Assembly (NCBI GenBank): GCA_964019135.1
Contig: OZ025248.1
Coordinates: forward strand, 42,153,670 to 42,217,669
Direction: 5' to 3'
Length of the DNA: 64,000 bases
Origin: Arenicola marina
Taxonomy: Eukaryota > Annelida > Polychaeta > Arenicolidae
Below, piece by piece: positions 15,490 to 64,000 of the stretch. The first letter of the stretch is position 1, and every line of letters begins with the position of its first letter. Both the position numbers and the translations under genes were made by a program. The notes below the pieces were generated by a model, which ran no database searches, was not told the DNA's origin, and saw nothing but the letters and a program-made list of their open reading frames with translations.

Positions 15490-16366
15490 AAGAAGCAAAA
15501 TAAAGTCCGGGAAATGTGTTTGCGTCGCTTGTAAAGCTGCAATGTATATTCACATCTACATCATGTGCCTGACAGTCCATTCTTGAAAAAGAACGTCACT
15601 TTTTAATGTTATAATACATATCCTTAAGCACCCTTTTGTCATGTCAACTTGTAAATTTGACTTTCTGTGTAAATAAATAAATTTTAAAATGTGTCATTCG
15701 ATGGTGTTGGGTGTGTAGTATAGATATCGCACCGAAAATAAATAAGCTGCGTAAATAATTTAAAGGCGGATTAGAAGCAGAAAAAATAATTTTCATCTGC
15801 TTTAGTAATTGCTGATCGACAAACATGCTCCATCCCGATCCCATACTTCCAGCTGCTCAGTGTCACATTTAATCCCCGGGAGTAAGTTAACATGTGCCCC
15901 GGCTATCATTAAGACACGTCGGCCCGGTCTTGGGACCAACAAGCCTGTTTTCACCCTGCGCCAGCCCGGGGGACCGTTCACTCACCAGGCTGTCAGAGAT
16001 GGGACACGTTTTATCCAGAATTGGTAAAAAACAAAACTCTACAATACGAGTAAGGGTGGTTGGACTAGATACATCCCACATCAGCGCCGTGATGGATGGG
16101 CCGCCGTTAGCATTCCCGTGATATCTTAGGGTCAATAACGGATGCGGATGTGGGGCAACCCCTGGTTGGGGCGCCCCCCTGTAAGGGCAACGCCCGCGGG
16201 TTGTCTCTCCTTCGTGGCAGCTCTCACATCTTCCTGTCTTCATTTCACTCTCAATTGATTATTGTTCATCATGGCGTGGGTCCGGCACCAGCAGGCCGAG
16301 TCGAGTCGCTGGTCGGCGAGAACGAGCCAAACGGAAGTGGGAGAGATCATCGGACCATAGGCACAC

Positions 16367-16793
16367 AGTTAACCGAAACGGGATAGGCCATAGACAAATC
16401 AACAGAAGTGAGAAAGGCCATAGACAAGCTATCGGAAGCGGGATAGGCCATAGACAAGTTAACGGAAGTGGCATAGGCCACAGACAAGTTAACGGAAGCG
16501 GGAGAGGCCATAGACAAGTTAACGGAAGCGGGAGAGGCTATGGACAAGCTAACGGAAGCGGGATAGACCATAGACAAGTTAACGGAAGCGGGAGAGGCTA
16601 TGGACAAGTTAACGGAAGCGGGATAGGCCATAGACAAGTTCACGGAAGCGGGAGAGGCCATAGACAAGTTAACGGAAGCGGGAGAGGCTATGGACAAGTT
16701 AACGGAAGCGGGATAGGCCATAGACAAGTTTACGGAAGCGGGAGAGGCCATAGACAAGTTAGCGGAAGCGGGAGATGCTAGGGACAAACGGAA
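16367..16793. repeat. 30-bp minisatellite, copy 0 (about 14 units)
   Basis: Units of exactly 30 bp around AAGCGGGAGAGGCCATAGAC, alternating AGAGGCC and ATAGGCC or AGAGGCTATGG forms. Thirty bases is ten codons, so the minus strand reads a ten-residue repeat of the form MASPASVNLS for 146 codons and the plus strand reads EAGEAIDKLT. Copies 1 and 2 hold only about three good units. Confidence 0.93.
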
Positions 16794-17317
16794 GAAGTAA
16801 GTAGTAAACTTAGGAGTCTATGATTATATTCAAGCCAGAAGTGACGCATACAGCAGGACCAGAGCGCGTGATCATCGCAAAAATATGTAGCTGCCATTCT
16901 CCAGTTCTTCTATGGAGACAATCGTTGCAAGACTTATATTAATTTTGTTTCGATATTTTCCATGAAACGCTATGATTATGGTTTACTGCGCAGCTTTGAA
17001 AGGCCGCAATTCACCCCCAAATCGCGCGGCCCTAATCTCTCGTGTCACACGTTACCATTGGGCCCTGGGCAAGCGCCTCTGCTGCAGCACTGCCTCCGTG
17101 CCGCATCTAGCGCCGAATTTTTGCCCAACTCTGTTATTGACATTGCACACCGGATTGCTTTGAAGTGGATAAATATAAAAAAAATAGAGAACATTGCGGC
17201 GACTTAATGTGCCAAGTGTCAGTAAATTTCAGTGTTATGCACAAAAGTGTCCGTTTGAGTTTTGGAATATTGTTTGTTCGATATAATATAAATTGTAAAC
17301 TATGCACAAATGCATTT

Positions 17318-17465
17318 AATATATCATATATTATTAGATATATCGCATATTATTAAATATATAAATATTAATAAATATATAACTATTAATAAAAATGTAT
17401 ATATTAATAAATATGTAAATATTAATAAATGTATAAATATTATTGAACATGTGAATATTTGTATA
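17318..17465. repeat. AT-rich ~18-bp minisatellite, copy 0
   Basis: Short array of ATAAATATTAATAAAT-type units, shorter than in copies 1 and 2. Confidence 0.85.
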
Positions 17466-17645
17466 CACATAAATTTAAGAATATTATTAAAAATATACAT
17501 AATATTCAATTCTATGCACTTTATTTTATTTTATTTTATCAAATTACCCAAAAAATATAAAACTTAGGCCACAATTTCATATTTCAATAATTCACTTTAA
17601 AGCAATATGTTCTGTAATTGTTATATTACCAATCTCTCCTCCAAT

Positions 17646-18135
17646 TGGATGAATAAATGACCTATGCACGAGATGAGGTGTCATGACTTACATCACCCAT
17701 CGTATCGCAGTTCATCGTTTCGCGTCACACTGACACTTATCGTTTGCTAAATTGGCAATTATCTTGTCGTCTCTGCGAAATGCCACAAACCAAGAAAGTA
17801 AAAACAAAACAACATCAAAGTAAAAGAAAATGATAGAAACATGAAAAGCCACCAACGGTTGGGCTCCGGACGAAGAGAGGTCAAGTCCGGAAGCTTGACA
17901 TTTCCCGATTCTTCGCATGACCAATTTCAATCAGCCGGTCTGAAGCTTTCATCGAGGGATAACCTTATTGACATTAGTGGCTTGACTTCAAGTTGCATGG
18001 CAACAGTCTTATGTTGAGATGCTGATTCAGATGCAGGTTTTGTCGCTGTTTGAGGTGCTCGAGTACTGTCTGCGTGTTTTTTAATGGTGTGCCACCTAAG
18101 AATGCCAAAGTGGCGGCCTGATCACTGCCCACCCA
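17646..18135. other. Copy 0 / copy 1 junction, unique DNA
   Basis: About 490 bp with no counterpart in the rest of the tandem array. In the other copies this place is occupied by some 3.3 kb (32,510-34,448 plus 39,708-41,065 equivalents). It therefore replaces, or marks, the edge of the duplicated region. No gene seen. Confidence 0.7.
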
Positions 18136-18854
18136 ACCCTATGATATCGCAATTTTCAAACGCCCCAGTTCGCGGTTTCAAGTCATATGTCTAACCAAAA
18201 CACGTTGCCCAGCGCTTATTGATGTGTTCATGGTTGGATTCATTCATCTTGACCAATGAGATGACATACGGACACCTCGTGACACCCCGGGGGCGTTTTC
18301 ACATAAGCACATGGTGTAGGCCCTATAGCACAACTCGCTTCATGCACTGACCGTCTCAGTAAGTCCCAATGTATTTATCGTCTTGATCAGTTTTATTCTG
18401 AGAAATATCTTTGCGTTTTACGGATACTTAAACTGTTCTGTTTAATGGAGTATATCAACCAAACAGATATCATGATCAACGGGTATGTTCAGATGAGATT
18501 AATGTTTGTGCACACCACTTTAAAACGAGGATGACGATTCGTGTGTATGCACTTTTAAGAAGTATTAAAGATGAAGCACGAAATTAACTTAGTGTCTGTT
18601 CCGTTGAAACATATGCCTTTTTCGCCATGGCCCTTCGACCCCTTGCCGTCCGCATGTTACTACGCGCGTTCAGGTCGGGCATGTTGTCGATGTTTATAAA
18701 AGCCATAATGACTAAATGTGTTCCGTCAATGTCAGACTGCCGTCAGCGTTAGCTTGTCTGAACTGACGTATTTTGGCATAAATTTCTTATGCACGGTTTG
18801 AAAAGTTTGCCTATTACTTAAAAGTCGTGTTCTTGAATAGGTCTACCGCATAGA
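18136..18854. other. Unit segment S2 in copy 1 (no gene)
   Basis: Matches 41,066-41,660 and 56,931-57,525. Copy 1 has about 130 bp extra at 18,453-18,590. An open frame of 73 codons shared by copies 2 and 3 is shifted here, which argues against coding. Confidence 0.75.
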
Positions 18855-19425
18855 ACATCTACAGGTTAAATGTAAATGCTAAAATTAAGTGTAGCATTTA
18901 AAGGTTAATTGGAATATTTAAATGTTAATTTGAACATTGAAAGGTAAATTGGAACATTTAAAAATTAAGTGAAACATTTGAAGGTTAACTGGACCATTCA
19001 ACGTTTAAATGGAACATTTAAAAGTTAAACGGAACATTTAAAGGTTAAGTTGAACATTTAAAGGTTAAACGGAACATTTAAAGGTTAAATTAAACATTTA
19101 AAGGTTAAATGGAACATTTAACGGTTAAATGGAACAGTTAACTGTTAAATGAAGCATTTAACGTTTAAATAAAGCACTTAAAGATTTAATGAAACATTTA
19201 AAGGTTAAATGACATTTAAAGGTTAAATGCAACATTTATAGGGTTAAATGCAACATTTAAAGGTTAAGTATTACAATGAGAGGGCAAAGATAACATTGAA
19301 AGGTTAAGTAGAACATTGAACTGTTATGTGGAACATTTAAAGGTTTAATGGAACATTTAAAGGTTTAGTGGAACATTTAAAGGTTTAATGGAACATTTAA
19401 AGGTTTAATGGAACATTTAAAGATG
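18855..19425. repeat. 20-bp hairpin minisatellite, copy 1 (about 28 units)
   Basis: Units of about 20 bp, GGTTAAATGGAACATTTAAA with variants. Every joint between units reads CATTTAA-AGG-TTAAATG, a perfect 7-bp dyad with a 3-base loop, so the array is a string of potential small hairpins. Confidence 0.93.
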
Positions 19426-19634
19426 TACGCCAAATGTGACCCTAATGTGGGCCAGATGTAGGCTAGAAATAACTCCTTACAAATATAAACAAGACAGTCG
19501 TAAGCTGAGGTACTGACAGAAGTGACGTCATCTTTGACGCAGACGTCTGTGGTGCCATTTATGCGCCGAAACTATGGTACAGGCGATGACGTGCAGAAAC
19601 ACATATACTATAATAATCTACTCTTGCCTCATGC

Positions 19635-19860
19635 TGGCTACATGAGGCCTTCAGTGGGCAGATTGGGTTAGACAACTCCTTCAATGAACAATTTGGGCTA
19701 ACTAGCGCGTTAAACGGGCAAATTGAAATAATTGTGGCCTTCAGCGGCTAATGTGGGCTAAACGTGACGTTCAATCGGCAATTTGGGCTTAATAACGCCT
19801 TCAACGGGCAATGTACGCACTTCGGACTTTCATGAAGGGCAAATTAGGCGCTGCAGGCAC
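19635..19860. repeat. Degenerate ~40-bp repeats
   Basis: Five or six poorly matching units around CCTTCAACGGGCAATTTGGG followed by CTAA, inside the private block of copy 1. Confidence 0.6.
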
Positions 19861-20586
19861 TATAATGAACCATGTGCGCACTGTATAAACCGATAACATA
19901 ACTGTTTAGGTAAAACCGTGCTTTTACTACCGTCATCACCTGGAACCGGGAGTAAGATTGGAACGTATTGTGGTTATTATTCAGATGGCCATTCCACAAC
20001 TCTTAATAAATGGAAGTCGATGTCTGAAGGCGTTCCAGTCCAAATTTTCCACTGATTGGGCTCGCTGAAAGCGCAATTTAGCCTAAATTGGACCCATAGG
20101 AAGTGGATGCTGGATGAGCACAATCTATCGGCTGCTGTTTAACGCGGGCTGTTTTCCAGAGAGAGGGTGCCATTTCGAGTGAATACGCTTAAATCTCGAC
20201 TTTTTCCGTGTGCTTGGTCACGCCCTAATCCCTGTTCATCCATCCCAGGTTCATCATTGCTAAATTACGGAGCCCTCTGGCGCCAAAACTAAGCAAGCTA
20301 GTATAAAGGCAGACTCATCAAAGGGGTACACTTCTTGCGAGCGCTCTAGCCGCCAACTAAGTGTCTTAGAGCAATTCTGTAGCGATTTAACATAAAACAA
20401 CCTTACATGTGCCTCTCGCTTCATGCTAAATCTGGGCTCACTGGCTCAAATATCAACCGAGTTTTGGCCCTTTGAAGTTCAATATGCCACTTAACGCGAG
20501 GTGGACGTCCCATCGATGCCGTTCGGCACCCATGACGTCACTGACGCTTACCAAATGAAACAAATTGGCTTCTAATGCTTCATGTT

Positions 20587-20864
20587 GCCTACTTATGATT
20601 GGTTGGTTATTCAGGACGCTTTAACCACTTTTGGTCATATCGCGTCAATGGAAGAAGGAAAGGAAAATGGAGCCATGTCCCCGTGGGTAACACCTTACTC
20701 TTTACAAAGAAAGACATGAGATCTTTATCGTGCAAACACACAGACATGGCCACAGTAGGGCTCGAACCACCGACCCACGTGCCGTTAGGCTCTCAGGTGA
20801 CCAGAGCACTCAATGCGAGCGCTCTAGCCCAGTGAGCTGTCGCGCCGGCCCCGCCTACTTATGA
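20587..20864 (-). mobile_element. tRNA-derived SINE with 12-bp target-site duplications
   Basis: Read on the minus strand, a tRNA-like head begins at 20,852. It has an A-box-like TAGCGCC/AGCTCACTGGG region, then a perfect B box GGTTCGAGCCC (plus-strand 20,758-20,768), followed by a non-tRNA body and a 3' end AATAACCAACCAATC. GCCTACTTATGA flanks it exactly (20,587-20,598 and 20,853-20,864). The body matches the SINE at 30,036-30,243 but is clearly diverged from it. Such SINEs are transcribed by Pol III and moved by a partner LINE. Confidence 0.88.
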
Positions 20865-21893
20865 AATTATAGTGATATTACCAAGCGGCTAAATAGGTGA
20901 AAATTAAACGATTTCACAATTTGGTCGGGTAACGTAAACTTGGACGTCATTTTTGACGCACACGTTTCGGTATCGCAAAACAAGTTACGCACGGCAGCAT
21001 TTGTCCCTTGATATAAGTTATAACGTCAAATAAACCGGAAGTCGATATGGCGTATAATAGCCAAGTAATGGTCTTTGTGAAACTGTTAACATGCCCTACA
21101 ACTCAAAACGTTGACCACCCCGACGGTAGAAGCATCAGCGATTCAGATATGACGACGTAATTGCCAACAAATGCTATACTTCATCATTAGGGATACATGA
21201 AATACGAGCCGACGTACAAAGAACAATGCGGTCGGAAGAAAGACAATAATGCTTTTCTGTCACCAGTTATCTGGAGATTTATGTTCCCTGTCATCAGCCG
21301 CAAAGATCTCAGCTCTATCTTCTTTTTCCGATTTTTGACGAATTTTCAAATTTGGACAAAATCTCTACACTTTATCATTGGGTAAATGTTCCGTTGCCAT
21401 TGGAAACATAATTGTGATTTGCGTTTGCCATGTTCTTGCCCGAGATCTCTTGTACTAGTCAACATCTTCCACCTTGGAGAATTAAATTGAAATCACCGAA
21501 TCGGAAGTACGTCAAATTAAACGAAGTTTTATTATATCCATATAATATATAACAAGGGTCCCATGTTAAACGTTTTCGACTATACACTAAAAAGCAATTG
21601 ATCTATGTCACCATGTTTGCAGTTGGTGGCTCAGCTCACTACTGTATATCTACGACTGCCAGCATAGAGTGATGACTTGAATAAGACGCCCGGGAGAGCC
21701 CTTGCTAGCACCAAAATCTTTCACCATTGGCCAAATTTCAGAAAATTCCCGTGACGTCATTTCTTATTCGAATTATATATGGTAAGCACTGTATCTACCG
21801 CGTATCATGGTTAACTAAAAACAATTTTTTTTGACAAATTTACAAACCGAATATAGCAGTATACTGACGGAAGTTTTCAACTTCTGTCAGTAA

Positions 21894-22496
21894 TAAAGGA
21901 ACAATTGTCACTGTAGTCCAGGCCAAAAGTAAGGCGCCAAGCATAAGGCGCATAAGATCTAATAATCACGGCAGGCTCCACATGAACATGTTTCAGATGT
22001 TGAAGTCTTTCATGGTTGCGACAGAAAGAGCTCTGAAATAGACATATTCCTGGCATCGTGTAATTTCCACTTTGTCTACAAGATTTCCTAGAGTTCTAGA
22101 GAGAGGCAGGAAGACAATGAAATCAAATCAAACACGGGTTTCGTTGTTAGCCGAGGATGTGAGCTGGGTGCTACTGGGGACGACCAGCAGGAAATGGAAG
22201 AGATTACAGCCTCCATTATACCGGAATATATGACATACCATGCAGGGGAATGGGGTATTAGCCGACCGTCGTGATCAAGGATTTCCATTAAGTGTGAACT
22301 GGGAATTTTCAGATTGAATAACCGTGAATAAAGAATATTGAATAATCGGGAAATGGTTAATTTAGTACCATGTAGCCGCCCTTCCATTGTAAGTGGGGAG
22401 TTCTTCCTTTAATTCATGATGATCTGGGAATAAAGAAATTAATTCTTCATTCTTCGTGATCTGGGAACATGATCCCCTTTGCCCCCCCCCCCCACA
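21894..22496. other. Unit segment S3 in copy 1 (no gene)
   Basis: The first 350 bp match 44,237-44,590 and 60,573-60,810; the rest (22,240-22,490) differs from copies 2 and 3. A minus-strand open frame of 99 codons lies across the boundary and is not conserved. Confidence 0.65.
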
Positions 22497-23490
22497 TAGC
22501 AGATAGTGGTATAGTTCTGTTCCAGGGCTACAGTATACACCTAGACATACACAAGAGACAGTGGCATAGTTCTGTTAGATCACTCCATTATACACCTAGA
22601 CATACATAACAGACAGTGGTATAGTTCTATGTTACAGCACTCCATTATACACCTAGACATACATAACAGATAGTCATAGTTCTGTTACAGCGCTACAGTA
22701 TACACCTAGACATACATAACAGATAGTGGTATGGTTCTGTTCCAGCGCTACAGTATACACCTAGACATACATAACAGATAGTGGTATATGGTTCTGTTAC
22801 AGCGCTACAGTGTACACCTAGACATACATAACAGATAGTGGTATGGTTCTGTTACAGCGCTACAGTATACACCTAGACATACATAACAGATAGTGGTATG
22901 GTTCTGTTCCAGCGCTACAGTGTACACCTAGACATACATAACAGATAGTGGTATATGGTTCTGTTACAGCGCTACAGTGTACACCTAGACATACATAACA
23001 GATAGTGTCATAGTTCTGTTACAGCGCTACAGTATACACCTAGACATACATAACAGATAGTGGTATGGTTCTGTTCCAGCGCTACAGTATACACCTAGAC
23101 ATACATAACAGATAGTGGTATATGGTTCTGTTACAGCGCTACAGTGTACACCTAGACATACATAACAGATAGTGGTATGGTTCTGTTACAGCGCTACAGT
23201 ATACACCTAGACATACATAACAGATAGTGGTATGGTTCTGTTCCAGCGCTACAGTGTACACCTAGACATACATAACAGATAGTGGTATATGGTTCTGTTA
23301 CAGCGCTACAGTGTACACCTAGACATACATAACAGATAGTGTTATAGTTCTGTTACAGCGCTACAGTATACACCTAGACATACATAACAGATAGTGGTAT
23401 GGTTCTGTTACAGCGCTACAGTATACACCTAGACATACATAACAGATAGTGGTATGGTTCTGTTACAGCGCTACAGTAAACACCTAGACA
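22497..23490. repeat. 55-bp minisatellite, copy 1 (about 18 units)
   Basis: Units of 54-57 bp around GTTCTGTTACAGCGCTACAG followed by TATACACCTAGACATACATA. Variant units recur in a fixed order of six, giving a higher-order period of 334 bp (for example the GTGGTATGG unit at 22,726 and at 23,060). Confidence 0.94.
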
Positions 23491-25470
23491 GACTAGCCAG
23501 GAGATAATAGTAATCCTTCAACAGAAGGCACACGCCCGGGATGGTATTTCTTCCGCCATGGGGCTCCAGCTAGGTTGGTCATATGCCGGACTGGTCATAT
23601 CCCCTACAGAGCACACTGACGGGTTCAGATTTACTCTAAGGTTGGAGAAGCGCACATGACTTTGGCCAGGTTTGTGGGAGGAGGGGGGAGGGTGTTGGGT
23701 GGGGAAGTGGTTTTGAAAGTTTAGGGTGGGAGGGGCATGTCAGGCCTCGGTGGCACGGACGAATAGGGACGGAGATTGGGGTTGGGGTGGGGTGGGGCAA
23801 TTCCAGATGTGTGTGGCTCATGGCAACCTTGCAATAGAGAGGTGGTGGGGAGAGGGGGGGGGGGGGGGCTTATATTCCCCATCGCCCCGTTGTCTGTGCC
23901 TGAGTCCATCGCGCGTTTGATGTAAAGCCTAAAACGCCCTCAACATCCTTCATCTCGGCTCGAGTCTATATTCTAATTTTGGACGTGGCCGTTAAACCAT
24001 TCCCGTCAGGCTAGATGATGACAAACCAGTTCTATGTCGGGGCAACTAAAGTAGGATATGGGAAAATTGGTCAACTTTAAACAAAATTGCATGATTAAAT
24101 ATACGCGCTTTTGAAGCATTGCTGATCCATCGTTTATCATTTGTGACTATTTGAGGCTTACCTACACCCACCTAGCATGCGGTTATATCAGAATATCCGG
24201 GTCTACGCCTGCATGATAAAGTTAACTTTGTCGCTTCATTCTTCAGATTTGGCGTCGATAGACCACCAGAAGGCGCGCCTTATGGCTTTTATTGCGGTCC
24301 AATGTTGCAGGTGCTTTAACAGACGGAGTTTTTATATTTTGGTTCAAGTTACACACCAGATCAACAACGTTAGTATTTGCAGAACATATGATGAAATTAT
24401 ATGGAAGAAGTTTTGATAATGATAACATGGTATTCGTCTTCTACAGCAATTTCACTGATTCCAATACAATAATTACAGGACCTTTCTAAATTATTGTGTC
24501 TTCTTCTTCCTATCTTTAAATGATCAATAAAACATTCCAAACTTGCAAAAGCCCTACTCTGACGCACGACGGCGACATGCCGCAATACAGTTCGCTCATT
24601 CTGTGCAAGGTTCGCGTCCTTGCCCTCCAGCAGACGGCAGGGTGGGGCCCGGTCCGATTACCCCAAACTGAGGACAGTCAACGATTCCAACACAATACGT
24701 TTGTGGACATTTTGCGGTCCTTAGTTTCAACATATATTTATTTCACAATACATGAAATCAAAGCATCTATCTCTGTCTTTTGATTGTATATTGAAAAATA
24801 CATACACAATGAATGGCATCAAAACAGGGTTAAACAGGTTTAAACACTATATTTCGCCAACATTTTAAATTTCATAATTCCAGCTATTGGCCGTAATGGA
24901 GAGCAATGAATTGAAGTCTCTCTCTAACAGGCATGCCTCTGTTGGTGTTAAACAGCGCATGGGAAGTCTCAGAATCCAGTGGTAATGGATTGCACTTGAA
25001 GGTGTTCAGGTTGACGGCTATGCACCCAATTGTGAAACAGAAATTAAATGCAAACTTCTCCCGCCGGGTATAGTTTCAATGCCGGCCGTTGTCAGTATGC
25101 ACATGGCTTATACATGTGATAGTTCCACAGATCAACCAGCTACCCACATACAGCTGCACCGATTCCAATCTATCCGTATCTGGGTCGCACCCCCCCCCCC
25201 CCCCACCCGCCACACAACCCACATCTTCCAATGTAAGTCCAATGGAGCCCATAGTAACCAGCTATATTGTCTTCCATGCTTCATTCGTAGTCGCAAAAAC
25301 ATTCCGCTCTTTATATTAAATGATTTTAGTGCTATTTCGTTACTGTAGAGAATGTTTAAATGTATCATTTAAAGGGAAATACCGGGCCCATATCATTTAC
25401 ATTTCCAGTTAAACTATAGGGAATTAACAAAACATTACACAGAATATATATTTTTGTAATCATACATTAA

Positions 25471-25675
25471 TGAAGTTTCAAGCCCTTTTGCACGACCACC
25501 CAACTTGCCATGGGCACCCGCCTCAGTGCACTGATGATGACGTCACAGGCGATGAAGCGACCAGTAGGTTTAGATGACTACTACTACCGGAAGCTATTAT
25601 AAGTTCTGGCGAGTCGGACGAAGAAGTTAAAGTAAACACCGAATTTACACCAACTGCTGATTTAATCGGGGACTA
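25471..25675 (+). pseudogene. Acidic short reading frame, possible exon remnant (copy 1)
   Basis: In copy 2 (46,560-46,766) this is an open 68-codon frame with an acidic centre, DDDVTGDEAAS, and SDEEVEVNTEFTPTADLIGD at its end. In copy 1 a CGA codon is TGA, so the frame is closed. The acidic composition recalls N-terminal regions of some transposases, but no family can be named and the frame may be chance. It lies about 800 bp from the THAP-like fragment, on the opposite strand. Confidence 0.15.
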
Positions 25676-26435
25676 GTTTGAACGTGTAGGGGTTGACGAT
25701 GGTGGATCAGGCATTGTTTATAGAGGTCGTTGAGGACGCATCGCGTGGTCAGTGAAGCCGTGTTGCATTAGAACGGAGGGTGGCGGCGGTTGGGGGCCGG
25801 GTGGGGGTGGAGAGATGGGTTCATCGTCATTGTTGGCAGGGTGCCCAATTTTGACTCGTAGAGTGGCGGGCCATGGTTCAGGAGGCGGCCGCTGGGGTGG
25901 GGGGGATGGAGTGGGGGCGGGCACTACACTACTACTGTGGTGGGGGTGTGCCGCTCATGCCGTAGAGAAGATTTGGAGAGTGAGAGTAAAGTGCCCGATT
26001 TTGTGGTCACTGAGAGAGAATTGTGGTTGAAAAGGCATATAAAATAAACACTGACATTAATGTCAAAGTGTCTGGAGGATAATTAGACTATATAATCAAG
26101 AACTGCAAGTTTGAAAAAAAAACAGTCTCAGATGGGCATATTGAGAAAAATTGTTGATTTCTGCTTCAGGGATTGAGAGAAAAAAGGGGTCATTTGGGCG
26201 GCACATATGTATATACCTAACTATATGTAGTGCACCCCCCACCCCCGCCCCCAGGAGTGGCAGTGTGTATGTTGATACAGCTGCTGTCTTAGAAACTCAC
26301 TGCCACTGAAGAGTGTATGGACAGGACTGCCGTACCACAGAATGGCCGTATGGGTTGGGGTGGGTGGGGTGGCGGTCTATCGTGGTGGTGGGGAGGAGTG
26401 GTGCGTGAAGCTAGCAGCCGGGTCGACTCAAAGCA

Positions 26436-26534
26436 ATTGTACTCATAGTGATCGGAACATACTCTTGAATGTTTCGTAGTTTTAAAACTCACACGAGCAA
26501 TCTTGCGTAACCATTGCCGCAAAAGCTACGGGTC
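26436..26534 (-). pseudogene. THAP-like zinc-finger fragment
   Basis: The minus-strand frame reads LLRQWLRKIARVSFKTTKHS followed by RVCSDHYEYNCFES. This fits the second half of a THAP domain, a DNA-binding zinc finger of the C2CH type found in animal regulators and in P-element-type transposases: the conserved Trp, a basic helix, and the closing Cys-x2-His pair (CSDH). The first Cys pair and the C-terminal AVPTIF-type signature are not seen. A stop lies just upstream of LLRQW and no ATG is present, so this is a remnant or a lone exon. Copy 2 lacks about 100 bp here (junction near 48,094), removing the fragment. The family call rests on the motif alone. Confidence 0.4.
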
Positions 26535-27190
26535 GCCTAGTGGACAGCGGTAGAAAGATATCCTGTTTTTGCTGTCCCTTTTTGCACTTGAATTATTACA
26601 GTCAACAGCTAAACAGTAGACCATTTTGTTCTAAATGCATGTTTCAAGTTTATGAGTCAAATTCGATTGTCACTATGCATGAGAGGTGTTAGGCCGACAG
26701 CTTGTTCCAAAGACGCACCGCTCGCATGTAAACAAACTGTTGGTTCAGCGGAAGGTAGTCGTCAGTGACGTCAACGCCTGGCGTGTGATTGGCTAACTCT
26801 GGTCACGTGTTCAAAACATGTCGACACCCGCTTGATGGGCGAAAATGTGTATTTTATACTGTTGATGTGCGATATTTTTGATAATGCTTTCTTTTTAAAC
26901 AGAACGATCAACGGCAAATAGATATTATACCAACAGAGTTTTATTTTTATATCACATTGTAGCCCCCGGGTATTTTCTTTTAATGTCAGCCCGATATGGC
27001 ATGTCCGTGCATGACGTGTGGTTTCTATATGCCAATGTAACAGACACTTATGGTTCAAAAGGCTTGCCATAAATAGCTTTTAGCTGCACCTAAGAAACAG
27101 ATACCTTATTATGACATTACCATATCCTTTTTCTTGACGGTATCATATTTAACAAACCGCTAGTCGGTTCAACCGTCTAATTCCAATAAC

Positions 27191-27686
27191 TGATACAGTC
27201 ATAGGACCCTTGCCAACATATCGCACCACTTATCCACCCGCTTAGTACTATGACCTACAGTCACAGGCCCCTAGCCAATATATCGCACCATATATCCACC
27301 CGCTTAATACTATGACCTGCAGCCACAGGCCCCTAGCCAATATATCGCGCCATATATCCACACGCCTAGTGCTATGACCTACAGTCACAGGCCCCTAGCC
27401 AATATATCGCGCCATATATCCACACGCCTAGTGCTATGACCTACAGTCACAAGCCCCTAGCCAACAGATCGCACAACATACCAACATATTCAGTGGTATG
27501 ACGTGCAGTCACAGGTCCATAGCCAGCATATCGCACCACGTATCCACATATTCAGTGGTATGACGTGCAGTCACAGGTCCATAGCCAGCATATCGCACCA
27601 CGTATCCACATATTCAGTGGTATGACGTGCAGTCACAGGTCCATAGCCAGCATATCGCACCACGTATCCACATATTTAGTGGTATT
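27191..27686. repeat. 62-bp minisatellite, copy 1 (8 units)
   Basis: Eight tandem 62-bp units around CAGTCACAGGCCCCTAGCC and TATCGCACCA. Left units read CCACCCGCTTAGT; the last four read CCACATATTCAGT, so two subtypes sit in separate blocks. Confidence 0.94.
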
Positions 27687-28071
27687 AGTTACGGCTGGAT
27701 GCAGCCAACCCCCCATGTTTTCTACAATTGGACATAATTATTGATATGATCAGCAACTCCTTGGATAATAAATGGCTGCTGTAATTTCCTGGCTGACGGG
27801 CGACATGGGAACAGATCGATCATGGCCAGTCAGGGGCAGTTGACCTTTCTATTCCTCAACAGGCACTCTTTACCCTTCGGCAGAGCAACAGCCAAAGTAG
27901 CCATCCATGAAACTACATTTGTTGGATACAGTAATGCTTTGGTGGAGACACTAATGTATACTATCCTTTCTTTTGCCCGTTTTAGTATCCACATATATCA
28001 GAGAACAGAATAAGAAGTCACAAAGAGAATAAAATTAAGATAACTGGTCGAATTAGATATCACATGATAAA
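27687..28071. other. Unit segment S6 in copy 1 (no gene)
   Basis: Matches 49,357-49,741 closely. A 63-codon open frame is shared by both copies but shows no known domain. Confidence 0.65.
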
Positions 28072-29258
28072 CCGACCACTTTAACCTGGCCCCGATTTCC
28101 CTGATGGATCACTTAACCTAGCCACCACATCCCTAGTGGACCACTTTAACCTAGCCACCACCTCCCTAGCGGACCACTTTAACCTAGCCACCACCGCCAT
28201 GGCGGACCACTTTAACCTAGCCACCACCGCCATGGCGGACCACTTTAATCTAGCCACCACCGCCATGGCGGACCACTTTAACCTAGCCACCACCTCCGTG
28301 GCGGACCACTTTAACCTAGCCACCACCTCCGTGGCGGACCACTTTAACCTAGCCACCACCACCCTGGTGGACCACTTTAACCTAGCCACCACCACATCCC
28401 TAGTGGACCACGTTAACCTAGCCACCACCTCCCTGGCGGACCACATTAACCTAGCCACCACATCCCTAGCGGACCATTTTAACCTAGCCACCACATCCCT
28501 AGTGGACCACTTTAACCTAGCCACCACCTTCCCAGCGGACCACTTTAACCTAGCCACCACCGCCATGGCGAACCACTTTAACCTAGCCACCACCTCCGTG
28601 GCGGACCATTTTAACCTTGCCACCACCTCCGTGGCGGACCACTTTAACCTAGCCACCACCACCCTGGTGGACCACTTTAACCTAGCCACCACCACCCTGG
28701 TGGACCACTTTAACCTAGCCACCACATCCCTAGTGGACCACTTTAACCTAGCCACCACCTCCCTAGCGGACCACTTTAACATAGCCACCACCGCCATGGC
28801 GGACCACTTTAACCTAGCCACCACCGCCATGGCGGACCACTTTAACCTAGCCACCACCTCCGTGGTGGACCACTTTAACCTAGCCACCACCACCCTGGTG
28901 GACCACTTTAACATAGCCACCACATCCATGGTGCACCGCTTAACCTAGTCCCTACATCCCTAGCGGACCATTTTAACCTAGCCCCCACCTCTCTGGTGGG
29001 CTACTTTAACCAAGCTATCTCTTTCCTGGTGGACCACTTTAACCTAACCCCGACCTCATTGGCGGATCGCTTTAACCTAGCCACTACCTCCCTAGCGGGC
29101 CACTTTAACCCAGCCACCACTTTCCTGGTGGACTACTTTAACCTAGGCACCACCCCTCTGACGGACCAATTTAACCTAACCCTGACCTCCCTAACAGACC
29201 AATTTAATCTAGCCCCAATATCTTTTTGGACCACTTTAACCTAGCCCGCACTCTATGG
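28072..29258. repeat. 33-bp minisatellite, copy 1 (about 25 core units plus diverged tail)
   Basis: Core units (28,106-28,945) contain GACCACTTTAACCTAGCCAC and a variable 9-12 bp end. The tail to 29,258 is more diverged. The period equals eleven codons, so the plus strand stays open for 270 codons (DHFNLATTSLA repeat) and the minus strand for 282 codons (VVARLKWSAMA repeat). One unit carries an extra 3 bp near 28,388. Copy 2 differs by exactly 18 units and that 3 bp. Confidence 0.95.
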
Positions 29259-31240: not shown

Positions 31241-31244
31241 GAGA

Positions 31245-34448: not shown

Positions 34449-34463
34449 GGCACATTAATATTT
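34449..34463. repeat. Target-site duplication of LINE B, 3' side
   Basis: GGCACATTAATATTT, repeated exactly at 39,528-39,542. The last T bases merge with the tail of the element. Confidence 0.9.
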
Positions 34464-43592: not shown

Positions 43593-43626
43593 GGAAAATG
43601 TAACAATTACAATTGACTAAGAAGTA

Positions 43627-49356: not shown

Positions 49357-49741
49357 TAGTTACGGCTAGATGCAGCCAACCCCCCATGTTTTCTACAATT
49401 GGCCATAATTATTGATATGACCAGCAACTCCTTGGATAATAAATGGCTGCTGTAATTTCATGGCTGACGGGGGACATGGGAACAGATCGATCATGGCCAG
49501 TCAGGGGCAGTTGACCTTTCTATTCCTCAACAGGCACTCTTTACCCTTCGGCAGAGCAACAGCCAAAGTAGCCATCCATGAAACTACATTTGTTGGATAC
49601 AGTAATGCTTTGGTGGAGACACTAATGTATACTTCCCTTTCTTTTGCCCGTTTTAGTATCCACATATATCAGAGAACAGAATAAGAAGTCACAAAGAGAA
49701 TCAAATTAAGATAACTGGTCGAATTAGATATCACATGATAA
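49357..49741. other. Unit segment S6 in copy 2 (no gene)
   Basis: Nearly identical to 27,687-28,071. Confidence 0.65.
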
Positions 49742-51109: not shown

Positions 51110-51317
51110 TTCGTCAATAGAAAAAGGAAAGGAAGGCTGGACTCATATGCTCTGGGTAACCCCCAACTTTTTGCCAAGGACATGGGATCTTTATCCGGCG
51201 ACCACAGAGACATGACCACAGTGGGGCTCGAACCACCGACCCACGTGCTGTTAATCTCTTAGGTGGCCAGATCGCTCATTGCGGGCGCTCTAACCTAGTG
51301 AGCTAGCGGGGCGGCTC
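51110..51317 (-). mobile_element. tRNA-derived SINE (copy 2 of duplicated insertion)
   Basis: Same insertion as 30,036-30,243, with the B box at 51,224-51,234. Confidence 0.85.
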
Positions 51318-52329
51318 TTGTGGGTTTGGGTGTGGGTGTGCGTCAGAGCAAATTGAATTCATCAGCACATCCTAGCTTGGATTTTCAATATTGGACTTTG
51401 GTATCGTTACTTGCTATTGGGCATGTAGAAAAAAACATCCCTTTTGGCCTTTGATTTCACAGTTTATTGTGTAACATATTAGTATTACGTTGTACCATAG
51501 TCTTTGGTGCGAAGACACTGAAAAAAGCCAAAAAGAGAAAAATAAACATGTGTTTGCGTTGCCTTGTAAAGCTGCAAAGTATATTCACATCTACACCATG
51601 TGTCTGACAGTCTATTGTTGAAAAAAACTTTCTAATGTTATAATACATATCCTTAAACACCCTTTTGTCATGTCCGTCAACTTGTAAAGTTGACTTTCTG
51701 TGTATATAAATACAATGTCATTCGATCGTCACTGTGTTGGGTGTGTAGTATAGATAGTGCCCCAAAGATTAAAATTAAGTTTCTATAACAGCTGCGCAAA
51801 AAATTTAAAAGCGGATTAAAAGCAGAACAAATCTTTTTATCGGCTTTAGTAATTGCTGATCGGCAAAGAATGCTCCATCCCGGTCCCATAATTCCAGCTG
51901 CTCAATGTCACATTTAATCCCCGGCCGTAAGCTAACGGTCTTGGGACCAACAAGCCTGTTCTCACCCTGCGCCAGCCGGGGGGACCGTTCACTCACCAGG
52001 CTGTCAGAGATGGGACAGGTTTTATCCTGAATTGGTAAAAAACTAAACTCTACAACACGAGTAAGGGTGGTTGGACTAGATACATCCCACGTCAGCGCCG
52101 TGATGGATGGGCCGCCGTTAGCATTCCCGTGATATTTTAGAGTCAATAGCGGATGCGGGGTGGGGCGCCCCCCGGGTTGGGGCGCCCCCCGGTAAGGGCA
52201 ACGCCTGCGAGTTGTCTCTCCTTCGTGGCAGCTCTCACATTTTCCTCCCCTTATTGTCCGTCCCAGCGTGGGTCCGGCACCAGCAGGCCGAGTCGAGTCG
52301 CTGGTCGGCGCGAGAACGAGCCAAACGGA
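51318..52329. other. Unit segment S7b in copy 2 (no gene)
   Basis: Matches 30,244-31,240. A longer minus-strand frame (181 codons at 51,805-52,350) is rejected for the reasons given for copy 1. A tandem GGGGCGCCCCCCGG palindrome lies at about 52,161-52,193. Confidence 0.65.
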
Positions 52330-52500
52330 AGTGGAAAAGATCATTGGCAAACGAAAGCGGGATAAACCGCGGTGAAACGGAAGTATGCGAGACCATAAGC
52401 ATACAGATAACAGAAGCGGGAGAGGCCATAGACAAGTTCACGGAAGCGGGAGAGGCCATAGACAAGTTAGCGGGAGCGGGAGAGGCTATGGACAAACGGA
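52330..52500. repeat. 30-bp minisatellite, copy 2 (about 3 good units)
   Basis: Same family as 16,367-16,793, contracted. Confidence 0.85.
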
Positions 52501-53039
52501 ACAAGTATTTAGTACACTTAGGATTCTATAATTATATTTAAGCCGGAAGTGACGCATACAGTGACAGCAGGACAAGAGCGCGTGATCATCGCAAATAAAT
52601 ATAGCTGCAATTCTCCAGTTCTTCTACGGAGACAATCGTTGCAAGACTTATATTAATTTTGTTTCGATATTTTCCATGAAACACTAAGATTATGTTATAC
52701 TGCGCAGCTTGGAAAGGCCGCAATTCACCCGCAAATCGCGCGGCCCTGATCTCTCGTGCCACACGTTACCATTGGGCCCTGAGCAAGCGCCTCTGCTGCA
52801 GCACTGGCTCCGTGCCGCATCTAGCGCCGATTTTCGCCCAACTCTGTTAGGCACATTGCACACCGGATTGTTTTGAAGTGGATAAATATAAAAAGAATAG
52901 AGAACATTGCAGTGACTCCGGCCTAATGTTGTGCCAAATTTCAGTAAATTTCAGTGTTATGCCCAACAGTGCTTATTTGAGTTTTAGAATTGTTTCATTT
53001 CGAGATAATATAAATTGTAAACTATGCACAAATACATTT
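52501..53039. other. Unit segment S8 in copy 2 (no gene)
   Basis: Matches 31,459-31,994 with few differences. Confidence 0.65.
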
Positions 53040-53465
53040 AACATATCATATATTATTAAATATATGAATATTAATAAATATATAATTATTGTTAAATATA
53101 TAAATGTTAATAAATATATAAATATTTGTAAATATGTTAATATTATTAAATATGTAAATATTAATATATATATAAATATTAATAAATATATAAATATTAA
53201 TAAATTTACAAATATTAATAATTATGCAAATGTTAATAAGTATGTCAATTTTAATAAATATATCAATTTTAATAGATATATAAATATTAATAAATATTTA
53301 AATATTAATAAATATTTAAATATTAATAAATATTTAAATATTAATAAATATATAAGTAATAATAAATATTTAAAAAAATTAAATGTATGAATATTAATAA
53401 ATGTATAAATATTATTGAACATGTAAATATTGTTATGCATATAAATGTTACTAAATGTTAGAATA
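53040..53465. repeat. AT-rich ~18-bp minisatellite, copy 2
   Basis: About 23 units of ATATTAATAAATATATAA type, including a run of identical TTTAAATATTAATAAATA units at 53,290-53,350. Confidence 0.9.
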
Positions 53466-55288
53466 TTATTAAACATACACTCAATTTTATACATTTTATT
53501 TTATCCAATTACAAAAAATAAGTAATACAATTTAGGCCACAATTTCATATTTCAATTAGTCAGTTCAAAGCAATATGTTCTGTAATTTTTATTATGCCCA
53601 TCTCTTCTCCATGCCAAACAAGTATATCCTGTCTGGAATTTAAATCCTGAAAGGCTGATTCACCGGAGCAGAAGTTGGTGGCCGGCTTTATATCCCTGCG
53701 CGCCTGTTCGCTGTTCGGTCTTCTGTGTGAAGTCGACCGCGACTCGCTAGGACGTCCACGCGCGATAAACTAATCCGCTAAGTATTATGTCGACATTATT
53801 GTATCTAATACATATATACATAGATAGATATCAAACATATATGCATTATAATTTGTTATAGTTGTTAAGGCATTTCGCATTGGACTTTTAATTCTTTAAT
53901 TCTTTGCAATATACCGTCATAATATAACTGACGTATGGAAACCGAAACCCGATTTTTGGACGGAGGATTTCCTTCGTAATCCTTTTGCTATCTGACTGTT
54001 TGTATTGTGGCTACGGTTACAACTACTAGCAATAGTGAAGACTTCCTTCATCGAGATAATTTGCAGTTATATCGCACATGAAGGGTCACAATATAGTCAC
54101 CCCCCCCCCACCCCCGCCCCCCACCCACCAGCTCCAGTAAAATGCCGCGCTGTTCGACATTGATGGGGGCAGGTTGCTGCCATTATTTTGTCCTACCAGT
54201 CGGCGGACACGAAGCGTTAACACCCACCAATTTAATTTTACGATGTAAACTTTCGGTGCATATCGCAATTAGATTAGGGGTTACACCCGCTTTCAAGTAA
54301 TCCATTTGGCCATTCAAAATGATAAAGAAAATGGTGTTTAGGCCGCTTTTGGGCATAGATGGCTCAAGGGAAGAAAAACATGTGGTTGTCTGTGAAAAGC
54401 ACAATACAATGTTTCTATGGCACACACACACACACACATTGAGACGAACTCACTTGGACAAGACAAGATGATTGGTGGCTTAAGAATCCTTGATACAAGT
54501 CCGTGTGCGAAAATGTTGCTGAAAGCTTCTTGATTGAACGGTCCCCTGGGGGCACCAAGGTGAGACGAAGCTTTATAATCTACGGCCAAGATCCAGCTTA
54601 TTGCCTTAATACTAGCCGGGACAAGGGTGTTGTGCCACGCCACAGAGGGGTTGAGGCCTCGGGGATGGAGCCGGGTGGACGGTGTAGTGGGCACGGGGTG
54701 ACCAAATCATTTCATCTGTGTACCACACTGAGCCGTCCTGCATGGTCTGCTCATTTTGTCTCAAAGTAGTAACAACGAAATAGATTCACAGGAGTGTTAT
54801 TCAATGAATTGGCATATTTCCTTCAACACATGGATATTACCCATTAACATGCACCAGAATGCAAACTCACATGACTTTAAAACAAGCAAACATATGGTCA
54901 CCAACCTGCAGACGAAATATACATAAGGTCACCTAAATGTAGTTCAAGCAAACAAGAAGCCGTTATAGCTTATGCAAACATATGGCCGCGTGACGAAGCA
55001 TGAAATATGCTACCATGTAACTGAAGATCACATAAAGCACACGTACTAGACAGAGAAGTAGTCCTTATGCCAGGAAAAACACATGGAAATTTTTGTGCTA
55101 AGGTCAAATGACCGTATGTATCACAAATGTCTAGCAAACGTTTCCAATTTGTATTTTGAATTATACTGGGACCAACATGTCTAATAGTATAACATCTTGT
55201 GGGGATAGTCATAGACTTCTGTCAATGACTGCTTATTTTTCAGTTCCTTAATGGGACTAATTCGGAGTTCAGTATTGGTCCAGTGATT
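53466..55288. other. Unit segment S9 in copy 2 (no gene)
   Basis: Matches 32,346-34,448. It contains a CA microsatellite (54,421-54,438). The 88-codon and opposed 118-codon frames near 54,338-54,769 are not supported as coding. Confidence 0.65.
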
Positions 55289-55329
<41 letters not shown>

Positions 55330-55345
55330 TATATATATATAATAT
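55289..55345. repeat. TA microsatellite at the site equivalent to the LINE B locus
   Basis: About 25 TA dinucleotides with one GA. It replaces the roughly 250 bp of locus DNA that flanks LINE B in copy 1. Confidence 0.9.
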
Positions 55346-56456
55346 ATACATAGGTTTTATAATATGCTTATCAAATATACAATATTATAAATTGGTAGAT
55401 TTCATGCTAAGTACATTATAACATAAGTAACAACCTATCCTTGACTTTAATATTCTCTTCACATGTATATGTCAGTATTAAACAAACTGTTCTCCATACA
55501 ATTATTTTCATAATGTAAGCAACAAGCCTTGATATATAATTATACGACCTTGTGATCATCATGAATGTTGTATTAGTCCAATATGATAATCATGAATATC
55601 GTAGTAGTCCAATATGATAATCATGAATATCGTAGTAGTCCAATATGATAATCATGAATATCGTAATAGTCCACTATGATAATGTACAACCACCTATAAC
55701 CATATCATTTAGATATATCCCAAAATCGCTCTTAGGCTCCTCCTTTTATGTAAACTTTTATTGGAGTATAGTATCAAGTTCCGTACAATATATTTGGATT
55801 CCGCAAGTTCACGAACTGAGCGAGCTGAATATCATGTCATAATCACACAACTGCAAGTCATTTAGCACATGCCTCTAGGGTTCTGGCGACAAGTTAGCGA
55901 CCGAAGCCACATACGCCAGTCTGATTTTCTTCATGGGGACCACGTGACATCTTCTCGATAGGATTTCAAACCAATTGAACATTTCCTTTTTTTAGAAGGG
56001 TCATCATTCCATTTATCATCGCAAACTCAGGAATGGTGCTCATAGATTGCAGATTATCACTGCTGTACGTATCACACCATCGGTTATGGGTAGGCATCCC
56101 ATGCTGCAGGGTGATTGATGACCAATTTGACGTGCTTTCCGCCTGACTCCTTTCGACTGTCACAATGTTACCACGAAAACCAATCTGAGTAATTATTCTT
56201 CAGACAATCAATAAAGCGCCTTTTACCGGCCGCGTAAGGTCGACATCGACTTCAATTCGTCTTCCACCGGGCATTGAGCGAAGGTCGAGGCACGGTGATC
56301 TATTACTCAGAAGTACCTCGGTTTACAATGATGTTATATGGCCAGGTGAGGTGAATCAGGTGAAGTACAGCAAAGTACAGGTTACCCGACAAGGATCATA
56401 CGTGGCATATACAACTATTGACAGTTACCAGCAATGGATGGGTCTTTGCGGCATAT
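55346..56456. other. Unit segment S1 before copy 3 (no gene)
   Basis: Matches 39,708-41,010 but lacks the 200-bp hairpin stretch; four 31-bp repeats at 55,572-55,685. Confidence 0.7.
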
Positions 56457-60425: not shown

Positions 60426-60942
60426 ATGCTTGCCAAATGTGGGCCAGATGTGGGCCAGATGGCTAAATAAGGCTAGAATAACACGCTATTTCAAAAGTTG
60501 TATTTTAAGATTGCGTGATGGTATCAATGGGCTACTGCACACAAGAAATAGCTGCCTACAAATATAAACAAAGGAACAAATCGTCACTGTAGTCCAGGCC
60601 AAAAGTAAGGCGCCAAGCATAAGGCGCATAAGATCGAATTATTATGGCAGGCTCCACATGAGTGTATTTGTGTTGAAGTCTTTCATGGTTGCGACAAAAA
60701 GAACTGTAAAATAGCCATGTTCCTGGCATCGTTTGATTTCCACTTTGTCTACAAGATTTCTTCCCAACTCTCGCGAGAGCCCCATATGGAGGAAGACACT
60801 GAAATCAATCAAATCACGGGGAATGCAAGACATGTATACATCTGTGTCCGTCCTTTGTCACAGTGTTTGACAGCTATGGCGTTGGCGCAACCCTGTTATG
60901 TGCCATCATTATGGCTACATGTTTATCGCACATTGTAGGAAG
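60426..60942. other. Unit segment S3 in copy 3 (no gene)
   Basis: Matches 44,089-44,794 but lacks the CTATTCT microsatellite and neighbouring DNA (junction near 60,810). Confidence 0.65.
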
Positions 60943-61895
60943 GGACATACGGAACAGACAGTGGCATATTTCTGTTACAGCGCTACAGTATACACTTAGA
61001 CATACATAACAGACAGTGGCATAGTTTTGTTACAGCGCTACAGTATACACCTAGACATACAGAACAGACAGTGGTATAGTTTTGTTACAGCGCTACAGTA
61101 TACACCTAGACATACATAAGAGACAGTGGTATAGTTTTGTTACAGCGCTACAGTATACACCTAGACATACATAACAGACAATGGTATAGTTCTGTTACAG
61201 CGCTACAGTGTACACCTAGACATACATAACAGACAGTGGTATAATTCCATGTTATTGCACTACAGCGTACAGCTAAACATACATAACAGACAGTGGTATA
61301 GTTCCATGGTGCTGCACTACAGTGTACACATAGAAATACATAACAGACAGTGGTATAGTTCTGCGTCACAGCACTGCACTATACACCTAAACATACATAA
61401 CAGAGAGTGGTATAGTTCTGTTACAGCGCTACAGTATAAACCTAGATATACATAAGAGACAGTGGTATAGTTCCATGTTACTGTACTACAATGTACACTT
61501 AGATATGCATAACAAACAGTGGTATAGTTATGTTACTGCACTACGGTGTACACCTAGACATACATAACAGATAGTCGTATAGTTCTGTTACAGCGTTACA
61601 GTATACACCTAGACATACATAACAGATAGTGGTATGGTTCTGTTACAGCGCTACAGTATACACCTAGACATACATAACAGATAGTGGTATATGGTTCTGT
61701 TACAGCGCTACAGTATACACCTAGACATACATAACAGATAGTGGTATATGGTTCTGTTACAGCGCTACAGTATACACCTAGACATACATAACAGATAGTG
61801 TTATAGTTCTGTTACAGCGCTACAGTATACACCTAGACATACATAACAGATAGTCGTATAGTTCTGTTACAGCGCTACAGTAAACACCTAGACAG
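60943..61895. repeat. 55-bp minisatellite, copy 3 (about 17 units)
   Basis: Long again, but built differently from copy 1: the left half has many diverged units (61,200-61,550) and only the right third is homogeneous. Confidence 0.94.
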
Positions 61896-63711
61896 ACTAG
61901 CCAGGAGATAATAGTAATCCTTCAACAGAAAGGCACACGCCCGGGATGGTATTTCTTCCGCCATGGGGCTCCAGCTAGGTTGGTCATATGCCGGACTGGT
62001 CATATCCACTACAGAGCACACTGACGGGCTCAGATTTACCTTGCAATAGAGGGGTTGGGGGGAGGGTGGGGGGGGGGGGCTATATTCCCCATCGCCTCGT
62101 TGTCTGTGCCTGAGTCCATCGCGCGTTTGAGGTAAAGCCTAACACGCCCTCAGCAGCCTTCATCTCGGCTCGAGTCTATATTCTGATTTTGGACGTGGCC
62201 GTTAAACCATAGCCCGTCAGGCTAGATGATGACAAACCAGTTCTATGTCGGGGCAACTGAAGTAGGATATGGGAAAATTAGTCAACTTTAAACAAAATTG
62301 CATGATTAAATATACGCGCTTTTGAAGCATTGCTGATCCATCGTTCATCATTTGTGACTATTTGAGGCTTACCTACACGCACCTAGCATGCGGTTATATC
62401 AGAATATCCGGGTCTACGCCTGCGTGATTAAGCGTTAACTTTGTCGCTTCATTCTTCAGATTTGGCGTCGATATACCACCAGATGGCGCACCTTAGGGCT
62501 TATATTGCGGTCCAATGTTGAAGGTGTTTTGTCAGACGGAGTTTTTATAATTTGTTCCAAGTTACACAGCAGATCAACAACGTTAGTACTTGCAGAACAT
62601 ATGATGAAATTATATGGCAGAAGTTTTGATAATGATAACATGGTATTCGTCTTCTACAGCAATTTCACTGATTCCAAGACAATAATTACAGGACCTTTCT
62701 AAATTATTGTGTCTGATTCTTCCTATCTTTAAATGATCAATAAAACATTCCAAACTTGCAAAAGCCCTCCTCTGACGCGAGACGGCGACATGCCGCAATA
62801 CAGGTTGCTTATTCTGTGCAGGGTTCGAGTCCTTGCACTCCAGCAGACGGCAGGGTGGGGGCCGGACCGATTACCCCTAACTGAGGACAGTCAACGATTC
62901 CAAGACAATACTTGTGTGAACATTTTGCGGTCCTTAGTTTCAACATATATTTATTTCAAAATATATAGAATCAAAGCATCTATATCTGTCTTTTGATTGT
63001 ATATACAAACATACATATACAATTAATGGCATCAAAACAGGGTTAAACAGGTTTAAGCACTATATTTCCCCAAAATTTCAATATTCATAATTCCAGCTCT
63101 CTCTGGCAGGCATGCATCTGTTGGTGTTAAACAGCGCATGGATTTTGCAAGTTTCAGAATCCAGTGGTAATGGATTGCACTTGTAGGTGTTCAGGTTGAC
63201 GGCTATGCACCCAATTGTGAAACAGAAATAGAATGCGAACTTCTCCCGCCGGGTATAGTTTCAATCCCCGTCCGTTGTCCTTATGCACATGGCTTAGACA
63301 TGTGATAATTCCACAGACCAACAAGCTACCCGCTCACAGCTGCATCGATTCCAATCTATCCGTATCCGGGCCACAGCCCCCCCCCCCCCCCCAACACACA
63401 CATCTTCGAATTTAAGTCTAATGGAGCCCATAGTAACCAGTTTTATTGTCTGCCAAGCTTCATTCGTAGTCGCAAAAACATATCCGTTCTCTGTATTACA
63501 TAAATGATTTTAACGTTACTTCGTTTCTGAGGAGAATTTATAAATGTACTATTTAATGTCAGCCCGATATGGCATGTTAGTTAGTGCATGACGTGTGGTT
63601 TCTATATGCCAATGTATGAGACACGTATGGGTCAAAAGGCTTGCCATAAATAGCTTATAGCTGCACGCGAGAAACAGATACCTTATTATGACACTGCCAC
63701 AGCCTTTGTCG
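61896..63711. other. Unit segment S4 and joined end of S5 in copy 3 (no gene)
   Basis: Matches 23,491-25,367 and then, after the junction at 63,552-63,556, 26,986-27,150. Retains the 345 bp missing from copy 2. Confidence 0.7.
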
Positions 63712-64000
63712 CCTAGTGGCATGACCTACAGTCACAGGCTCCTAGCCAACACATCGCACCATATATCTCCATGCCTAGTGCTATGACCTACAGTCACAGG
63801 CCCCAAGCCAACCTATCGCATCATATATCTACACACTTAGTGGTATGACCTTTAGGCACAGGCTCCAAGCCAACATATCGCACCATATATCAACACACTT
63901 AGTGCTATGAGCTACAGTCACAGGCTCCTAGCCAACATATCGCACCATATATTCAAGCATTTGTGCTATGAGCTACAGTCACAGGCCCCTAGCCAACATA
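63712..64000. repeat. 62-bp minisatellite, copy 3 (incomplete at window end)
   Basis: At least four units around CAGTCACAGGC and CCATATAT, cut by the window edge. They are more diverged than those of copies 1 and 2. Confidence 0.9.

Follow-up and report, generated by a model that had tools for sequence, protein, structure and literature searches.

Adjacent direct copies longer than 1 kb are regarded as segmental duplications when their identity is at least 90%, and macrosatellites are composed of many (tens of) near-identical kilobase-scale copies in tandem, D4Z4 and RS447 being human examples. Hybrid units resulting from unequal crossing-over are known from Bar and from the red-green opsin genes. 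The CUP1 arrays of Saccharomyces cerevisiae are described as tandem duplications arising by unequal non-homologous recombination, the model favoured in that account being end-joining between two points of sister chromatids (PMC4232551). The locus considered here lies in a stretch of 64,000 nucleotides from the annelid Arenicola marina (C1:42,153,670-42,217,669; hereafter the window, whose numbering is used for all coordinates at this locus), for which an original prediction had proposed a tandem array of a ~16-kb unit packed with minisatellites and of no feature type that could be named. An annelid host is also indicated by four matches to the erythrocruorin linker family (Eryth_link_C), against none in 14 control genomes; for the one match compared with the PDB, all four structures retrieved were haemoglobin linkers. 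The mitochondrial COX1 reads through in genetic codes 5 and 9 and not in code 2, and by inspection code 5 gives the better protein, of annelid appearance. The locus is most likely a tandem segmental duplication of three units, here called A, B and C from left to right, with a recombinant middle unit; in other words, an ordinary local duplication of seemingly gene-free DNA in a repeat-rich genome.

Self-alignment of the window together with 60 kb of upstream and 100 kb of downstream DNA (224 kb) displayed long head-to-tail repeats from 15,483 to 68,811, in which segments and minisatellites followed one another in constant order. The window shuffled in 2-base blocks yielded no off-diagonal self-match at E<=1e-5. 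Four candidate unit boundaries were aligned and fell at 15,483, 30,450, 51,524 and 68,811, positions that are good to ~10 bp. The left end of the array begins at the unit phase of 30,450 and the right end halts at that of 30,449 (within ~10 bp); since both ends display a matching phase, the array consists of three whole units. A tandem unit of ~16 kb was thereby borne out (15.0 kb, 15.8 kb without an inserted long interspersed nuclear element, LINE, and 17.3 kb), while the four copies originally counted came down to three, the first partial copy (15,483 to ~18,137) and the copy at the right edge being complementary ends of the array. Its extent, which had been left open on the right, could be fixed once downstream DNA was aligned: the array spans 53.3 kb in the assembly and ends 4.8 kb beyond the window edge. 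The copy junctions placed near 18,136, 41,066 and 56,931 turned out to be internal to units, as B and C continue through these points, C carrying ~400 bp more; near 18,137 unit A alone departs, a block found in B and C being absent from it.

Unit boundaries were common to the copies and the flanks were not duplicated, as in a tandem segmental duplication. Identity between units was not uniform at 95%; it formed a mosaic of about 72-98% by segment. The right part of A/B and the left part of B/C exceeded 90%, with 92-98% by segment apart from one gapped segment at 78%, and A versus C fell below 90% in many segments. Unit A had no counterpart of the stretches at B/C phase ~32,518-41,067 and ~41,660-43,626, the latter holding the 40-bp array (gain or loss in either case), and it carried ~2.4 kb of private DNA at ~19,456-21,891 (three-way alignment and self-alignment). 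B is the longest unit mainly because the ~5.3 kb LINE resides in it. At the first-duplication junction, the joined ends shared, by eye, a few bases of A-rich similarity at most.

Unit B was found to be a hybrid. To the left of B 45,400 it resembles C, A being diverged there, and to the right it resembles A, C being diverged. Diagnostic sites were counted in 14 three-way blocks outside minisatellites, eight to the left and six to the right of this point. The left blocks (2,550 three-way sites) contained 200 sites at which B agreed with C only, against 27 for A with B and 27 for A with C; the right blocks (2,428 sites) contained 221 at which A agreed with B only, against 36 for A with C and 31 for B with C. 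In the three-way alignment, A 17,642-18,136 and ~18,850-21,880 displayed 40-55% identity to B/C in most windows; these stretches were taken as non-homologous and kept out of the counts. The likelihood ratio for one switch was 314, the maximum in 1,000 permutations being 22 under a null that treats sites as independent. The change-point optimum lay between B 45,379 and 45,382, and the base-level junction ~20 bp farther, at 45,400. There is thus a single ancestry switch between two parental units, which is what distinguishes a hybrid unit.

The two parental sequences meet at B 45,400 with one shared base and ~350 bp out of homologous register. Missing from B at this point are ~349 bp that A has (23,965-24,313), and ~352 bp that C has; such a join would fit unequal non-homologous recombination. 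The copies emanating from this second duplication (A 24,314-B 45,400 versus B 45,401-C 62,174) differed at 390 of 11,125 aligned sites (3.5%). Between A and C, differences were more frequent, at 244 of 2,551 alignable sites on the left and 284 of 2,474 on the right (~10-12%). Coordinates of units, junctions and repeats are collected in Table 1.

Table 1. Units, junctions, transposon and minisatellites of the array, in window numbering
Feature	Position	Strand	Description	Basis
Unit A	15,483-30,449	+	14,967 bp, older left unit	boundary alignment, self-alignment, three-way alignment
Unit B	30,450-51,523	+	21,074 bp (15,808 without LINE), hybrid	diagnostic sites, fine map, divergences
Unit C	51,524-68,811	+	17,288 bp, runs past window end at 64,000	self-alignment with flanking DNA
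First-duplication junction	30,447-30,452; again at 51,521-51,526		unit end to unit start	boundary alignment
Second-duplication junction base	45,400		C-derived (to C 62,174) joins A-derived (from A 24,314), one shared base G	fine map
Non-LTR (long terminal repeat) retrotransposon (LINE)	about 34,436-39,701 (ends approximate)	-	~5.3 kb	open frames, Pfam, self-alignment
30-bp minisatellite	A 16,367-16,775; B 31,363-31,450; C 52,408-52,495		copies: A 13.6; B 2.9; C 2.9	
18-bp AT-rich minisatellite	A 17,318-17,442; B 32,005-32,373; C 53,050-53,477		copies: A 6.8; B 20.8; C 23.8	
31-bp minisatellite	B 40,137-40,215; C 55,553-55,683		copies: B 2.5; C 4.2; none reported in A	
40-bp minisatellite	B 42,938-43,589; C 58,800-59,966		copies: B 16.1; C 29.1; none reported in A	
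20-bp minisatellite	A 18,853-19,422; B 43,669-44,085; C 60,046-60,422		copies: A 28.6; B 21.2; C 19.2	
55-bp minisatellite	A 22,494-23,490; B 44,791-45,124; C 60,944-61,894		copies: A 18.0; B 6.1; C 17.1	
62-bp minisatellite	A 27,196-27,685; B 48,741-49,356; C 63,714-66,060		copies: A 7.9; B 9.9; C 38.0	
33-bp minisatellite	A 28,074-29,267; B 49,745-50,341; C 66,449-67,569		copies: A 36.2; B 18.2; C 34.2	

An origin by two successive tandem duplications is considered very probable. In a first step, whose boundaries can be read from the alignment and whose mechanism can be surmised, one minisatellite-bearing stretch of ~15-17 kb would have been doubled head to tail. The two copies would then have drifted to about 10-12% substitutions, accumulating indels, blocks restricted to one copy and transposon insertions. 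In a second step, the segment from A 24,314 to C 62,174 of the existing two-unit array would have been doubled in tandem, giving rise to hybrid unit B. The switch and the junction of this step are observed; the two points would have been linked through one shared base, ~350 bp out of register, presumably when misaligned chromatids or broken forks underwent end-joining of the non-homologous or microhomology type. As far as the sequence can tell, the join points to end-joining rather than to plain homologous crossing-over. Later changes would comprise the 3.5% divergence between the copies, entry of the LINE into one of them and altered copy numbers in seven of the eight minisatellite arrays. 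Drift would suffice as an explanation, with no function required. A gene is unnecessary for retention because neutral duplications last for a time; the earlier remark that no gene explained retention thus agrees with the negative tests reported below for part of the array, while its premise that retention calls for a gene does not stand.

A six-frame Pfam scan of window 41,068-56,069 and of unit A 19,400-22,002 detected no family at E<=0.05. Codon-period substitution bias was displayed by none of 14 aligned segments at p<0.05, a test whose power is low in segments with few substitutions. Of the 46 indels counted, 36 were not multiples of three. As a candidate coding unit, the minus-strand open frames 30,734-31,189 and 51,805-52,437 were considered and rejected: they had no Pfam match, and 13 indels, nine of which were not multiples of three, occurred in the surrounding stretch (A 15,483-16,353 versus C). 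An RNA gene was likewise rejected, with no Rfam match at the gathering cut-off and no tRNA in the window, and no Rfam match up to E=1 in 30,000-34,500. The tests made gave no sign of selection on the unit; short exons or a non-coding RNA are possible.

Several observations weigh against the two-step origin or its second step as proposed. Divergence attributed to the second step was uneven across segments (1.4-7.6%). In the left block nearest to the junction, three of the 12 parent-choosing sites favoured the other parent, as did one of the first nine sites to the right, and the first right block held 20 sites at which B agreed with C; private mutations would produce such sites. A crossover followed by a small deletion over the switch is, moreover, indistinguishable from direct end-joining. 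In this sub-case of the two-step origin, homologous unequal crossing-over between A and C would have made B, and a separate deletion of ~350 bp would later have erased the exchange point. Pairing would have been favoured by the likeness of A and C in this neighbourhood, where A 23,491-23,634 differs from C by 0.014 substitutions per site. The ancestry change and the deletion joint are nevertheless no more than about 20 bp apart, and as switch and joint coincide, two independent events are less parsimonious than one out-of-register join; crossover plus deletion is accordingly rated as the less probable route, though one to be taken seriously. The difference of 3.5% between segment copies could also be allelic in a very polymorphic invertebrate, ~2.11% heterozygosity being given for another species, an earthworm (PMC12130307). 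The animal would then carry two units only, both alleles of the middle segment having been assembled in tandem as a false heterotype duplication, and insertion polymorphism of a young LINE would fit. This is rather improbable. For the old duplication, in which A and C differ by 10-12%, an allelic origin is unlikely, and assembler joins normally require overlaps, whereas the junction displays one shared base and lies in non-array sequence. The 224 kb contained no N, hence no gap between copies, and wrong filling would escape this check. In published false duplications, depth is described as halved and the copies as separated in most cases by a gap, at times a wrongly filled one (PMC9516828), and the same source notes that wrong gap filling can conceal false joins. 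Neither for a 2.7-kb unit probe nor for 2 kb of left flank did the assembly matches include a second haplotig, which speaks neither for nor against a false duplication. Taken from the assembly, the lack of gaps over 224 kb and a junction almost free of homology argue against false duplication and would favour a real molecule.

Two further explanations carry little weight. The array might be under selection for the dosage of a regulatory element or non-coding RNA contained in the unit. Three copies have been kept and a non-coding role is compatible with every test; the coding tests themselves, another point to be held against a neutral array, concerned part of it, had little power where segments were short or had diverged little, and would let short exons without known domains escape. 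The lack of any Rfam match in the scans described above, the several kb of present or absent blocks that distinguish unit A, and the free variation of indels and minisatellite sizes nonetheless make selection very improbable. Even less credence is given to a large mobile element or macrosatellite amplifying as a unit, to which the head-to-tail repetition in constant order would correspond. Genome searches covered the 867 Mb assembly (762 contigs), and unit probes of 2,722, 1,525, 1,182 and 1,782 bases (7.2 kb in total) matched this locus only, apart from dispersed repeats, one of ~700 bp and short ones of ~200-370 bp, and a ~380 bp unit stretch that recurs 9.4 kb downstream of the array. Candidates exceeded scored matches in three of the four probe searches, so that counts of dispersed repeats are lower bounds. 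A mobile element array was rejected, no unit copies being found elsewhere with these probes, which represent part of the unit, and a macrosatellite was ruled out by the three units and by the array end at 68,811 in the assembly. Divergences between the three copies are unequal, polymerase domains sit in LINE sequences (six open frames searched), and no terminal repeats or target duplications were seen by eye at unit ends in the boundary alignment, no dedicated search having been made.

Eight minisatellite arrays were found in B and C, and unit A was devoid of those of 31 and 40 bp. The predicted order of shared segments and the arrays of 40, 20, 55, 62, 33, 30 and 18 bp are real, except that the 40-bp array is absent from A and that a 31-bp array had gone unlisted. 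Between copies of the second duplication, copy number differed in seven of the eight arrays (for instance 6.1 versus 17.1 for 55 bp and 36.2 versus 18.2 for 33 bp), equality being limited to the 30-bp array. For three of the eight motifs the whole genome was searched, two mismatches at most being allowed, and all matches lay inside this array (27/27 for 55 bp, 43/43 for 33 bp and 11/11 for 40 bp); those three motifs therefore appear to have originated at this locus and to have been duplicated along with the unit.

Packing with minisatellites, once held to set the locus apart, proved unexceptional. Tandem repeats cover 26.4% of the array, as against 16.2% of the 60 kb upstream, 19.4% of window 1-15,482 and 38.2% of 95 kb downstream. 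Four randomly placed 10-kb pieces gave 86.1, 86.2, 1.6 and 24.2%, a sample of four by which the genome average is poorly constrained, and five short loci taken for another purpose gave 0, 4.1, 10.6, 1.4 and 10.4%. As the array is bracketed by the values for flanks (16-38%) and controls (0-86%), its minisatellites need no special explanation, and these figures suggest that in this genome a high density of minisatellites does not by itself mark a feature as unusual. For another annelid, Amynthas aspergillum, 9.84% tandem repeats are given, with 2.65% as minisatellites (PMC12130307). The two random pieces at ~86% consisted of a 33-bp motif in ~260 copies and a 29-bp motif in ~264 copies.

Other repeats were encountered around the array. 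Downstream, a 43-bp unit with a higher-order structure of 112/129 bp forms an array of ~15 kb at about 146,218-161,749. Upstream, a 17-bp minisatellite (TCATCATATATCAGGCG) flanks on both sides the remnant of a LINE in which reverse transcriptase and zf-RVT domains were recognised (window 6,325-10,671), and small local duplications of 97-98% identity lie beside 31-bp minisatellites (1,799-2,100 / 2,838-3,141 and 2,659-2,806 / 5,204-5,351). Within the array, dispersed repeats with many genomic copies were found at 25,369-26,094 (~700 bp), 51,112-51,315 (~200 bp) and 52,522-52,770 (~250 bp); by eye, the 200-bp repeat resembles a tRNA-derived short interspersed nuclear element.

In the LINE of unit B, a reverse transcriptase domain lies in an open stretch of 801 aa and a zf-RVT domain in the adjoining one (34,541-35,155); the insertion site of the element corresponds to a TA run in unit C. 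Of 764 first-look candidates for a 2,000-base probe, 40 were scored, and seven of these, other than the element itself, matched at full length with 99% identity, which marks the family as young. On another contig (C12:11,034,182-11,125,650), four copies of the LINE were spaced 27.8-30.1 kb apart, and their adjoining 2-kb stretches, mostly non-LINE, were 97.8-99.5% identical in all six pairs. From these sequences a second large tandem array with units of ~28-30 kb is probable on C12, and large tandem arrays are probably not special to the present locus.

What the locus offers is a clean worked example, in which the order of two duplications and the base-level position of the second join can be read together with paired minisatellite arrays that were once identical. 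A broader idea, rather unlikely as it stands, is that minisatellite-dense DNA acts in this annelid as a general breakage zone, repeatedly seeding tandem duplications of tens of kb by end-joining; the C12 array fits this idea, without testing it. If it were true, the copies would be natural replicate lines for comparing the turnover of minisatellites of known common age. Should the second duplication prove allelic, the locus would instead call for caution with assemblies of polymorphic, minisatellite-rich genomes.

Compared with known systems, the feature first thought to be without a name can be designated a tandem segmental duplication of local kind, in which the middle unit is recombinant. 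It shares with D4Z4 and RS447 the kilobase-scale tandem units, although only three copies are present here and these are about 72-98% identical by segment. As in Bar and the opsin genes, the middle unit bears the left part of one parent and the right part of the other; in contrast to them, the switch lies ~350 bp out of homologous register with a one-base overlap. Adjacent copies a few percent apart recall false heterotype duplications as described in PMC9516828, whereas the present sequence is gapless and its junction clean. On this comparison, the duplication appears most like the CUP1 arrays, which likewise display a near-homology-free junction (three bp or less there, one base here; PMC4232551). 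CUP1 units as described there measure ~1.2-2 kb, carry a selected gene and diverge by 0.5%, against ~16 kb, no detected gene and greater divergence here; and unlike in CUP1, the second event began from an existing two-unit array and left a hybrid unit behind.

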